From Limnochorda pilosa (GTDB taxonomy: Bacteria; Bacillota; Limnochordia; Limnochordales; Limnochordaceae): 64,000 nucleotides of DNA. Positions 58,974 to 63,134 of the stretch are shown here, in pieces. The notes beneath the pieces are model-generated. The model was not told the DNA's origin and did no database searches. It worked only from the letters and a program-made list of their open reading frames with translations. The stretch is from NCBI RefSeq assembly GCF_001544015.1, contig NZ_AP014924.1, positions 1,240,001-1,304,000 on the forward strand. The letters are read 5' to 3'. How positions within the stretch are numbered: position 1 is the first letter of the stretch; every line of letters begins with the position of its first letter. The position numbers and the translations under genes were made by a program.

Positions 58974-59327
58974 TCACGGACCACTTGAGATCTCGAATCC
59001 CCACAAGCCCCAGGCCACGCCGAAACGCTTGCCGGCACCGAGTCCGACGCTTCCACCTCCACACACCATGCAACCCATGAGCTTTGTACCACCCAAGCGT
59101 GCCTCAACCTTCATCACAGCCAAGTAGCCCCCTAACCCGGCACCGGCGAACCCGTCTGATGATGTAGTCCCGTCAGAGTGTACGGAGCCCGAAGCCGCAC
59201 TGAAGAACCCGCCGCCAGCCTCGAGAGGCAGGACGCTCAGTTCGGCTCCGAAGACGCGTGCGTGAATCACAGCCACACTGCCACTCACAGCAGTTGGTGA
59301 TGCATCAGCCTCAACGTTAGCAAGAGA
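58974..59327 (-). pseudogene. Gly/Ala/Ser-rich protein, C-terminal fragment cut by an IS
   Basis: This is a 118-residue open stretch (ANVEADASPTAVSGSVAV, GGGFFSAASGSVHSDGTTSS, GGGSVGLGAGKRFGVAWGLW) reading leftwards out of an IS end. It resembles the low-complexity Gly-rich C-terminal parts of polymorphic-toxin-like or surface proteins, but no family can be named. Its only ATG lies in the IS sequence, so the original N-terminal part was lost when the IS inserted. Codon use and lower GC content suggest foreign origin. Confidence 0.45.
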
Positions 59328-59808
59328 TGAGGTGGACCCCATTGTCTTGACAGATTGACGCTGGCAAAGCGTGTACAGAGTTCGTTATCCCGGAGGAGTA
59401 CACCTCTGCTAGTGTCCGGTAGCCCAACGCCTGGTGCAGCCGCCGGTGGTTGTAGAACTCCAGGTACTGGCCGATAGAACGGCGGGCTTCACGCGGTGAG
59501 CTGTACTCCTTCAGGTAGACCTCCTCGTACTTCAACGTGCGCCACAACCGCTCCGTGAACACGTTGTCGATAGCGCGGCCTCTGCCGTCCATGCTGATCT
59601 GCACGCCAGCGGCTTCGACGAGCTGGATGTAGGCCGGGCTGGTGAACTGGCTGCCCTGGTCGCTGTTGAGGATCTCAGGCCGAGCCTGTGCAAGGCCAGC
59701 CTCGACGGCCGCCGACACGAAGCCCACCTCCAGGGAACGTGCTACAGGCGAGGCTATCTGGCCAAGTGAAGCCCTCCACGTCGCGCGCTGAGTGACCACC
59801 CCCTTCAT
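59317..59808 (-). pseudogene. IS3-family transposase, C-terminal remnant
   Basis: The integrase core C-terminal half is clear: PEILNSDQGSQFTSPAYIQLVEAAGVQ, the DDE Glu region DNVFTERLWRTLKYEEVYL, then FYNHRRLHQALGYRTLAEVY. The match begins at SLEVGFVSAAVEAGL; upstream residues are unrelated, so the N-terminal half with the first Asp is missing. The matching outer IS end lies at 59328-59352. The remnant abuts the next mobile element on its right. Confidence 0.85.
59328..59352. repeat. IS3-family terminal end
   Basis: The sequence from TGAGGTGGACCCC (59328-59340) through TTGTCTTGACA is typical of IS3-family termini located just beyond the transposase C-terminus. The opposite end is not present in the window. 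Confidence 0.55.
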
Positions 59809-60152: not shown

Positions 60153-60723
60153 GTGGAATCCTACCTCCGCCTCTTCGAAGAGGGCAAAAACCCGATCGTG
60201 CGCACGTGTCCCGTCTGCCAGGGCGAGCTGCAGAAGCACGGGCACTACGATCGCCACGCCACCGAGGAAGCTGGGCCGTGGCAGGCTCTGCCCATCCAGC
60301 GGATGATCTGCCGGGTGTGCCGCGTCACCGTCTCGCTGCTGCCCAGCTTCCTCAGGCCGTACCAGAGCCTTGCCTCGGCCCTGAGGGAGTTCCTGTTGCA
60401 AGGGCGCCTCCGGGGAGAGCGTGCGGCGCCTGGCCGAGACGGCAGGCCGCTCCGTGAGGACGATCCGGCGGCTCTTCAGCCGCTGGAGCGGCCAGGCGCC
60501 GCAGGTGGTGGAGCGGCTGCAGGCGCTGATCCTCGAGATCCGGCGGGACTTCCCCTTCGGTTGGGGGAACGGGCCGCCGGGTGAGGCCGAGGAAGGCCCC
60601 TTGCAGTCGCTTTGGGAGCACGCCACGAGTTGGAGGGTGATCTGGGCGCAGCGAAACGAGAGGACGATCCCCGTCTTCGAGGCCGTCAACCTGAGCCTCC
60701 AGGGCGCTCCCGCCTGGCTTTGA
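60153..60723 (+). pseudogene. DUF6431 zinc-finger protein of a transposable element, frameshifted
   Basis: The first frame encodes a zinc-ribbon-like start (VRTCPVCQGELQKHGHYDRHA, RMICRVCRVTVSLLPSFLRPYQ) up to LREFLLQ near 60400. The family continuation, KGASGESVRRLAETAGRSVRTIRRLFSRW, is in the +1 frame from about 60400 to the stop at 60721. A single-base indel near TTGCAAGGG explains the split. The first in-frame GTG is at 60153, but family-like residues continue upstream to a CTG at 60123 preceded by GGGAGGGAG. It lies directly upstream of the transposase cassette. Confidence 0.65.
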
Positions 60724-60804: not shown

Positions 60805-61500
60805 TTGCCCACAGACTCTGTCCTCTCTCGGCCGTTCCGGTGCTTTCGAGAACGAGGATAGGAGGTGATGGGCATGAGCCATGCCCTCAAGGGAAGAGAG
60901 GTCCACAAGCCGCGCCCAGAGGCCACCCGGGACCGGAGCGAAGGGGAGGCCCTCTTCCGCTACCGGATGATCGCCCCGCTGATCGATCCGCTCGCCACCG
61001 AGCAGGAGAAGACCCGCTGGCGGCGAGAGGTGACCGGACGCGAGCACATGCTCCCCGACGGCTCCCGGAGGAAGGTGAGCGGGCGGAGCCTCCTGCGCTG
61101 GGTGCAGGCGTACCGGATCGGTGGCTTCGACGGACTCAAGCGGCTGCCCCGCCAGGACCAGGGGGTCTCCCGGGTCCTCTCGTCCGAGGTGAAGGAGTTC
61201 CTGCGCTCCCTGAAGGAGGAGGAGCCCCAACGGAGCATCCCCCAGATCATCCGGCTGCTCGAGACGGCGGGGAAGGTGGAGCCGGGAAGTCTCTCGCCGA
61301 AGACCGTCTGGCGCTACCTGGCCTCCCTGGGCTTGAGCCAGCAACACCGGCCCCCATCCCAGGAGCAGTACCGCCGCTTCGAGGCCGCCCGTTCCGGGGA
61401 CCTCTGGCAGGGCGACGCCTCCCACGGGCTGCTCCTGCCGGACCCGGAGGATCCCCAGCGCGTCCGACGCACCTACCTCCTCGCCTTCCTCGACGACCGC

Positions 61501-61516
61501 GCCCAGAGGGCACCCG
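61501..61516 (+). repeat. 16-bp repeat GCCCAGAGGGCACCCG, copy 1
   Basis: It follows GACCGC and adds A-Q-R-A-P within the strand FLDDR…FIPHAEFFW, where the family usually has only one or two residues. The reading frame is kept. Confidence 0.8.
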
Positions 61517-61629
61517 GCTTTATCCCCCACGCCGAGTTCTTCTGGGCCGAAGATCTCTATGCCCTGGAGCTCTGCTTCCAGCGGGCGATCCTGCGAGGCG
61601 GGCTCCCCCACAGGGTCTACGTCGATCGC

Positions 61630-61645
61630 GCCCAGAGGGCACCCG
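61630..61645 (+). repeat. 16-bp repeat GCCCAGAGGGCACCCG, copy 2 at the frameshift
   Basis: It follows GATCGC and separates YVDR from MIYQAEVF. Because 16 is not a multiple of three, the downstream coding sequence moves to the +1 frame exactly here. Confidence 0.85.
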
Positions 61646-62047
61646 ATGATCTATCAGGCCGAGGTCTTCACCCGGGCCTGCGCCGAGCTGGGGATCCGCC
61701 ACCTCTCGGCCAAGACCGGCCGTCCCGAAGGGAAGGGGAAGATTGAGCGCTGGTTTGCCACCTTCCAAAACGAATTCCTCCCCGAGCTCTCCCTCCACCC
61801 GGTCCAGACGCTCGAAGCCCTCAACGAGCGGCTATGGGCGTGGATCGAGGAGGCCTACCACGTCCGGACCCACTCGGAGACGGGCGAGCCCCCGGCCGAG
61901 CGCTTCCTGCGGGATCTCGAGCGGCGGACGGTCCCTCCTGAGCGCCTCCAGCGGGTCTTCCTCTGGCGGGAGGATCGGCAAGTGGACAAGACGGGCGTTA
62001 TTCAGTTCGCCGGCAACCGCTACCAGGCCCCGGCCGGGACCGAGCAC

Positions 62048-62063
62048 GCCCAGAGGGCACCCG
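62048..62063 (+). repeat. 16-bp repeat GCCCAGAGGGCACCCG, copy 3
   Basis: It follows GAGCAC and adds A-Q-R-A-P before EVELRYHPLRL. A variant with one change, GCCCAGAGGCCACCCG, occurs at 60914-60929. Confidence 0.8.
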
Positions 62064-62324
62064 AGGTGGAGCTCCGCTATCACCCGCTGCGCCTTGAAGA
62101 ACTGGAAGTCTGGCGGGAGGGCCGCTTCGCGGGGAAGGCGAGGCCTCTGGACCTCTACCGCTCCCGGCTGGACCGGGTGGCCCGGGCCCACGAGCCTGCA
62201 GCCCCCAAGCGCACGGGGCTGCCGTACCTCGAGCTCCTCCTCCACCGCCACGAGGAGCGGAAGCGCCAGGCCCTCTCGCCCCTGCAGCTGCACCGCCCCG
62301 AACCCGGGAAGGAGGGCGAGCCTC

Positions 62325-63134
62325 GTGTATGAGGCCTTCTTCGGGCTCTCCCGAGCCCCCTTCACCCGGGAGATCGCCCCTTCGGACCTCTTCACCTCCC
62401 GCCAGCACAAGGAGCTCCTCGAAAGGCTCCGGTACGCGGCGGAGCGAAGGCTCGTGATGCTCCTCACCGGCGAGGTGGGCTCGGGCAAGTCCACCGCCCT
62501 GCGGGCGCTCCGAGAGCACCTGGACAGCGCCCGCTACGAGGTGCTCTATCTCGCCGACGTCGCCTTCTCCCCCAGGAGCTTCTTCCACCGGCTCCTGGAG
62601 GAGCTTCACGTCGAGGCCCCCTACCAGCTCACCCGGGCCAAGCGGCTCGCTTACCGCACCCTCCTGGAACGTCACCAAACCCAGCACCGGACCCCGGTGC
62701 TGGTGGTGGACGAGGCCCAGCACCTTCCCCGGGCCGTTCTGGAGGAGGTCCGGGGGCTCCTGAACTACGACTGCGACGCCTTCGCTCCCTTCGCTCTGAT
62801 CCTCTCGGGCACCCGGCCCCTGGCGGAACTCCTCCAGCTTGCGAGCCTCGAACCGCTCTCCCAGAGGATCGACCTCCGCTTCCACCTCCAGGGCCTCACC
62901 CTCGAGGAGACCCAGCAGTACGTGCGCCACCTGCTGAACCTCGCCGGCGTCGGGCAGGAGATCTTCTCCCGGGAGGCCCTCACCCGGCTCCACCTGGCCT
63001 CCGAGGGGATCCCGAGAAAGATCAACCGCCTGGCCACCCTCACCCTCATGGCGGCCGCCGCACAGGAGCGCCGCGTCATCGACGACGGCTTCCTCGACCA
63101 GGTGGCCTCGGCGGAGCTCAGCTGGACGGCCTGA
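62325..63134 (+). CDS. ExeA-like AAA ATPase, transposition partner
   Basis: The 269-residue AAA protein begins VYEAFFGLSRAPFTREIAPSDLFTSRQH, typical of ExeA-like ATPases. Walker A is TGEVGSGKST, Walker B is VLVVDEAQHL, sensor I region LILSGTRPLA, and the lid has QRIDLRFHLQGLTLEETQQYVRHLL and GIPRKINRLATLTLMAA. Such ATPases assist target choice by Mu/Tn7/TniB-type transposases, so it is the partner of the preceding transposase. The GTG at 62325 lies 8 nt after AAGGAGGG and overlaps the transposase stop. It appears intact, unlike its partner. Confidence 0.87.
   Translation: MYEAFFGLSRAPFTREIAPSDLFTSRQHKELLERLRYAAERRLVMLLTGEVGSGKSTALRALREHLDSARYEVLYLADVAFSPRSFFHRLLEELHVEAPYQLTRAKRLAYRTLLERHQTQHRTPVLVVDEAQHLPRAVLEEVRGLLNYDCDAFAPFALILSGTRPLAELLQLASLEPLSQRIDLRFHLQGLTLEETQQYVRHLLNLAGVGQEIFSREALTRLHLASEGIPRKINRLATLTLMAAAAQERRVIDDGFLDQVASAELSWTA

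Follow-up and report, generated by a model that had tools for sequence, protein, structure and literature searches.

A 19-nt palindromic repeat, very likely a mobile element, in a transposase gene of Limnochorda pilosa and in genomes of several phyla

The window is the whole 64-kb stretch of DNA that was analysed from the genome of Limnochorda pilosa, which is a single contig of 3,817,036 bases and is 99.95% complete. It contains a transposase gene that is split between two reading frames and is adjoined by an AAA ATPase gene (Table 1). The downstream part of the transposase also has a match to PF13683, which at E 1.8e-4 is below the cut-off of that family. Remnants of other mobile-element genes, a DUF6431 ORF and a minus-strand rve_3 integrase fragment, lie near the transposase (window 60153-60723 and 59317-59808). 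A plasmid search with the transposase region gave no match. The original prediction reported three identical copies of a 16-mer, GCCCAGAGGGCACCCG, within this gene, and these were found at 61501-61516, 61630-61645, and 62048-62063, together with a variant differing by one change at 60914-60929. The full repeat unit is 19 nt, CGCGCCCAGAGGGCACCCG, and includes 3 conserved nucleotides upstream of the 16-mer.

Table 1. Repeat units and genes at the transposase locus (positions are those of the window)
Feature	Position	Strand	Sequence, matches and remarks
Transposase, 5' part	60865..61746	+	HTH_32 (Pfam PF13565, E 1.7e-9) and first portion of the catalytic core; runs up to the frameshift
Probable older copy	60911..60929	+	CGCGCCCAGAGGCCACCCG, 18/19; close to where the 5' transposase ORF begins; sequence match
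Unit copy 1	61498..61516	+	CGCGCCCAGAGGGCACCCG; in frame, adds 4 aa; homologues have CACTCCC, 7 nt replaced by 19
Transposase, 3' part, other frame	61559..62332	+	Rest of the integrase core; Mu-transpos_C (PF09299, E 1.4e-9)
Unit copy 2	61627..61645	+	CGCGCCCAGAGGGCACCCG; directly after YVD; homologues have CGGGGC, 6 nt replaced by 19, +13
Unit copy 3	62045..62063	+	CACGCCCAGAGGGCACCCG; in frame, adds 4 aa; homologues have GGCCGC followed by A or C, 7 nt replaced by 19
AAA ATPase gene, outside the unit	62325..63134	+	Pfam AAA_22 (E 2.6e-24); weak TniB

Homologues of the transposase from three genomes of the same order (~59% amino acid identity) are empty at all three sites. At copy 1 the heptamer of the homologues is flanked by GACGAC and GGTTG and the unit by GACGAC and GCTTT, and the protein junction reads DD/RAQRAPG/FI versus DDHSR/L in the homologues. 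The corresponding flanks at copy 2 are GAC and CTC in the homologues versus GAT and ATG around the unit, and at copy 3 they are GAA and AGGTC versus GAG and AGGTG. Copies 1 and 3 encode the additional AQRAP-type residues in frame, as predicted, and five homologous loci are without these residues. The exchange at copy 2 is a net gain of 13 nt and therefore shifts the frame; one copy was originally said to cause a frameshift, and copy 2 is located at the frame break between the two ORFs. The original prediction that 16 nt replaced about 4 nt at copy 1 was right regarding the net change of +12 nt, but the exchange itself is 7 nt for 19 nt. The sequence at 60911 is probably an older copy of the unit, judging by its similarity; its insertion is unproven because the homologues do not align that far upstream. 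The alignments show that the window transposase has taken up three units, two by 7-for-19 exchanges and one by a frame-breaking 6-for-19 exchange, and the gene is probably inactive.

The consensus of the unit is CGCGCCC-AGA-GGGC-A-CCCG, in which the loop and base 15 are variable. The predicted fold is a four-pair hairpin, GCCC-AGA-GGGC, which is the hairpin noticed originally, and the bottom strand as RNA is predicted to have six bases paired (-10.1 kcal/mol, z -2.2). Among 119 distinct variants the loop (positions 8-10) and base 15 are the most variable, and the stem and the CCCG tail vary little; because these variants were selected for their resemblance to the consensus, overall conservation is inflated and only the contrast between positions is informative. 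Stem pair 4-14 features a compensatory change from G-C to A-T in 3 genomes. The stem covariation is thin: its score is reached by 2 of 500 shuffles, but double changes affect only one pair. The base composition of the flanks across copies reveals that conservation ends at the edges of the 19-mer; the flanks differ between copies, and only C at positions -1 and +2 is mildly preferred. The unit has no stop codon in any of the six frames. No Rfam match covers a unit at the 20 loci checked. The sequence was not found in 5.39 million open papers; an earlier description in subscription papers or supplements is possible.

A genome-wide count of the 16-mer GCCCAGAGGGCACCCG, which the original prediction had proposed as a check, gave 12 exact copies in L. 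pilosa versus 0.03 expected from base composition. Eighteen further copies have one mismatch, for a total of 30 with at most one mismatch versus 0 for the reversed pattern. The core CGCGCCC-NNN-GGGC-R-CCCG occurs 27 times exactly and 64 times with at most one mismatch (control, 6). The window alone is unremarkable when 0-3 mismatches are allowed (7 copies versus 5.3 expected), and the weight rests on the exact copies and the genome-wide count, not on this window count. Many of the units lie inside genes, mostly as single units. Three near-identical copies in one gene could have arisen locally in the transposase, by gene conversion or by template-switch mutations, but dozens of unrelated loci and other phyla have the unit with no flanks in common, and this explanation is barely credible. 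A single template-switch event does not account for identical 19-mers across several phyla, and gene conversion among the copies, also suggested originally, is not needed because the flanks are not shared.

Some copies are found in longer contexts. Units at three loci, L014 and L020 (genome 437082 and 1654615) and L008 (2396578), are located within one longer repeat that is common to all three, and at two of these a Rfam group II intron match (D1D4-6) ends ~110 nt from the unit. The unit may have hitch-hiked with this longer repeat, or the locus may be a source of units. The variant CACGCCCAGAGGGCACCCG recurs at three loci (L243, L250, and L257) in similar longer contexts, with CCTTCCCCG or CCCTCCCG before it and a GGGG-rich, GGGAAGG-like sequence after it.

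The 18-mer GCGCCCAGAGGGCACCCG was absent, at up to one mismatch, from 40 relatives, including one genome of the same genus that is 86% complete. Among 399 Bacillota genomes the 19-mer was found only in L. pilosa and in members of one other family. In a collection of genome contigs it occurs in at least 120 stretches from several phyla with several copies per genome, and the taxa among the matches listed include Chloroflexi/Dehalococcoidia, Deltaproteobacteria, Peptococcaceae, Abditibacteriales, Acidobacteria, Methylomirabilota, and others. Counts with up to two mismatches reach 37 copies in 1.5 Mb and 63 in 8.8 Mb (control, 0). Genomes with only one to three copies may represent chance matches; the single Streptomyces and Mobilicoccus matches are probably of this kind, and the one Streptomyces genome that was counted scored like its control. 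Two observations concern related sequences and carriers. A sister subfamily, CGGGCCCAGAGGGCACCCC, is present in three acidobacterial MAGs (G041, G061, and G063; loci L074, L119, and L131) and has the inner 15 nt in common with the 19-nt unit, but both ends differ. An IMG/VR viral contig, 3300049574_000234, features two 19-mer units (L196 and L198) and is a possible carrier between hosts.

This distribution bears on two further explanations. An assembly, polishing, or database artefact, which the original prediction allowed for, is suggested by the unusual presence of an identical short string in unrelated records and by the fact that most of the other carriers are MAGs. However, the L. pilosa genome is a single contig, the copies decay into genome-specific variants and keep the frame in conserved genes, and carriers of many sources were found in three sequence collections of unrelated origin, which makes an artefact very unlikely. 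A convergent or selected binding site for a protein, or a DNA uptake or methylation signal, would account for near-identical sequences in distant phyla without a mobile unit. Such a site is improbable to a high degree, since comparison with orthologues and paralogues shows the copies to be inserted, conserved enzymes contain them, there are tens and not hundreds of them, and their occurrence is patchy, being limited to L. pilosa and one family among the 399 Bacillota.

Insertions of the same kind were found in other genes of the genome. A methylase gene was compared with its orthologue in the same-genus genome (82% nucleotide identity), in which GGCCC is followed by CGGCAAG and GCCGGGAG where the L. 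pilosa gene has the unit, an exchange of 7 nt for 19 nt. Relative to the same-genus genome, TopA has a net gain of 12 nt and HisA a net gain of 24 nt, and in HisA the unit sits inside an inverted copy, giving two nested units. A cluster of units and variants in both orientations is located in and behind topA (genome 1743309-1744989, L061). S-adenosylhomocysteine (SAH) hydrolase has a net gain of 12 nt versus two genomes of the order, and both SAH hydrolase and an aldehyde dehydrogenase have four additional residues at the unit relative to PDB homologues. Across the aligned part, other orthologous pairs differ by a net +15, +18, +21, or 0; these regions align poorly, and the pairs are not decisive.

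These comparisons show that the 19 nt usually take the place of 7 nt, which is a net gain of 12 nt or four codons, and reading frames therefore survive. Filled and empty sites with both flanks shared were also compared within genomes, and the gap was 7 nt in 16 of the 20 pairs with a gap below 19 nt; these 16 pairs cover 10 distinct copies in 5 genomes. The cleanest empty site consists of TATGCTCCGTTTTGTC, the heptamer CAGCCAT, and CTTTTCCTTGTCTTTG. A control in which the left flank of a copy was paired with the right flank of the following copy from that genome yielded 7 nt seven times as well; this is expected, because repeated host contexts recur in those genomes, and the control is therefore weak. 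The host sequence around several of the gap-7 sites is low-complexity or tandemly repeated and apparently intergenic, so selection for the reading frame does not explain the 7. Two copies of one insertion sequence that are 88% alike differ by two units, with exchanges of 8 nt for 19 nt and 6 nt for 19 nt, which means that either the exchange may vary by one nucleotide or indels arose later. Units are inserted in both orientations, and some are nested in inverted copies of the unit, whose central 7 nt they replace. The inferred target heptamers begin with C, as the unit does, in 12 of 14 cases that were chosen by hand and are not all independent; the true exchange may thus be 6 nt for 18 nt. 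Target-site duplication, a feature of MITEs and other insertion sequence derivatives, was not seen at the compared sites, at which ~7 nt of the target are lost.

The loss of a near-fixed stretch of 6-7 bp would also be expected of a scar left by the excision of a larger mobile element, for example by coupling-sequence exchange of a tyrosine recombinase, as 6-7 bp is the overlap length of many of these enzymes. However, ~120 loci, viewed without a systematic search, gave no sign of a full-length element bounded by these ends, and the flanks have no further conserved sequence, so an excision scar is unlikely. The repeats are instead very likely copies of a 19-nt mobile palindromic element that has spread within the genome. 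In several phyla, intergenic DNA and unrelated genes contain dispersed copies of the element with sharp 19-nt ends. The tiny mobile unit considered in the original prediction is borne out by the dispersed copies, their sharp boundaries, the unrelated genes that carry them, and the empty sites in relatives and paralogues.

A trans-acting enzyme would recognise the hairpin and its CCCG/CGGG tail as single-stranded DNA or RNA. The target would be nicked at two places 6-7 nt apart, and the enzyme would insert the unit as a patch in the resulting short gap, in place of those 6-7 nt. A gene for Y1_Tnp had 0 matches in the 99.95% complete L. pilosa genome, with control genomes positive. It was present in 6 of 12 carrier genomes and absent from L. 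pilosa and 5 others, and the group II intron maturase domain, which was rejected as a common factor, was absent from 6 of the 12; domain absences in MAGs may reflect incompleteness. Neither of these candidates was found in all of the carriers, and no mobilising gene was identified among them. The unit could be a REP/REPIN-type repeat moved by a RAYT or another Y1 single-strand transposase, given its REP-like size, its hairpin, the adjacent conserved tetranucleotide (CGGG on the bottom strand), and the carriers that do have Y1_Tnp. The carriers that are without it, including L. pilosa, and the often intragenic, mostly single units make this quite improbable; IS200/IS605-type insertion is not known to replace 7 nt. 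Targeting of hairpin tips was also considered and rejected, as flank pairing is weakly above shuffles (8 copies versus 2.3 expected at a stem score of at least 6) and within genomes is not above them.

The closest known kinds of repeat are the small dispersed repeats (SDRs) of cyanobacteria, the Rickettsia palindromic elements (RPEs), and REPs/REPINs. An SDR is a dispersed unit of 21-27 nt with a conserved predicted secondary structure. The SDRs of Nostoc were reportedly described by Elhai et al. in 2008 as very small hairpin-like units, proposed to be mobile, and are said to occur within heptamer repeats, other repeats, and their own copies. The 19-nt unit is likewise very small, dispersed, hairpin-forming, and nested in its own copies, whereas the SDRs belong to one cyanobacterial group and the 19-nt unit to several other phyla. 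The unit also differs by its length, by its near-fixed 7-for-19 replacement, and by frequent in-frame insertion in genes. RPEs are palindromic repeats that are found in frame in unrelated protein genes, to which they add a peptide (PMC10969869). The 19-nt unit shares this in-frame insertion, but the RPE palindrome is ~150 bp, and the unit has non-conserved flanks, adds a net of 4 aa, and spans phyla. REPs/REPINs associated with RAYTs are short dispersed hairpins with a conserved tetranucleotide (PMC3116915), with GTAG and CGTC families (PMC3733652). The 19-nt unit is such a hairpin with a conserved tetranucleotide; however, its consensus has no GTAG or CGTC tag, it is not confined to extragenic DNA, no RAYT is present in the L. 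pilosa genome, and the units are mostly single. The GC clusters and double-hairpin elements of fungal mitochondria are tiny GC-rich palindromes that are thought to be mobile. They resemble the unit in being tiny palindromes but are mitochondrial, and a fixed 7-nt replacement is not known for them.

The outcome of insertion looks selfish: transposase genes are left scarred, and proteins acquire short inserts that they tolerate. We tentatively consider that the element may be a distinct mobile class, one of the smallest known with its 19 nt, that replaces a near-fixed 6-7 nt target rather than duplicating or just splitting it, has crossed phyla, and repeatedly adds exactly four codons. Known mechanisms of insertion usually either duplicate target bases or leave them in place, and the near-constant 7-for-19 exchange points to a defined enzymatic process; the fixed exchange offers a direct assay for the mobilising enzyme. 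The near-identical sequence in distant phyla makes the element traceable as a mobile unit. With a net gain of 12 nt and no stop in any frame, the unit is well suited to introduce four-residue insertions into conserved enzymes.
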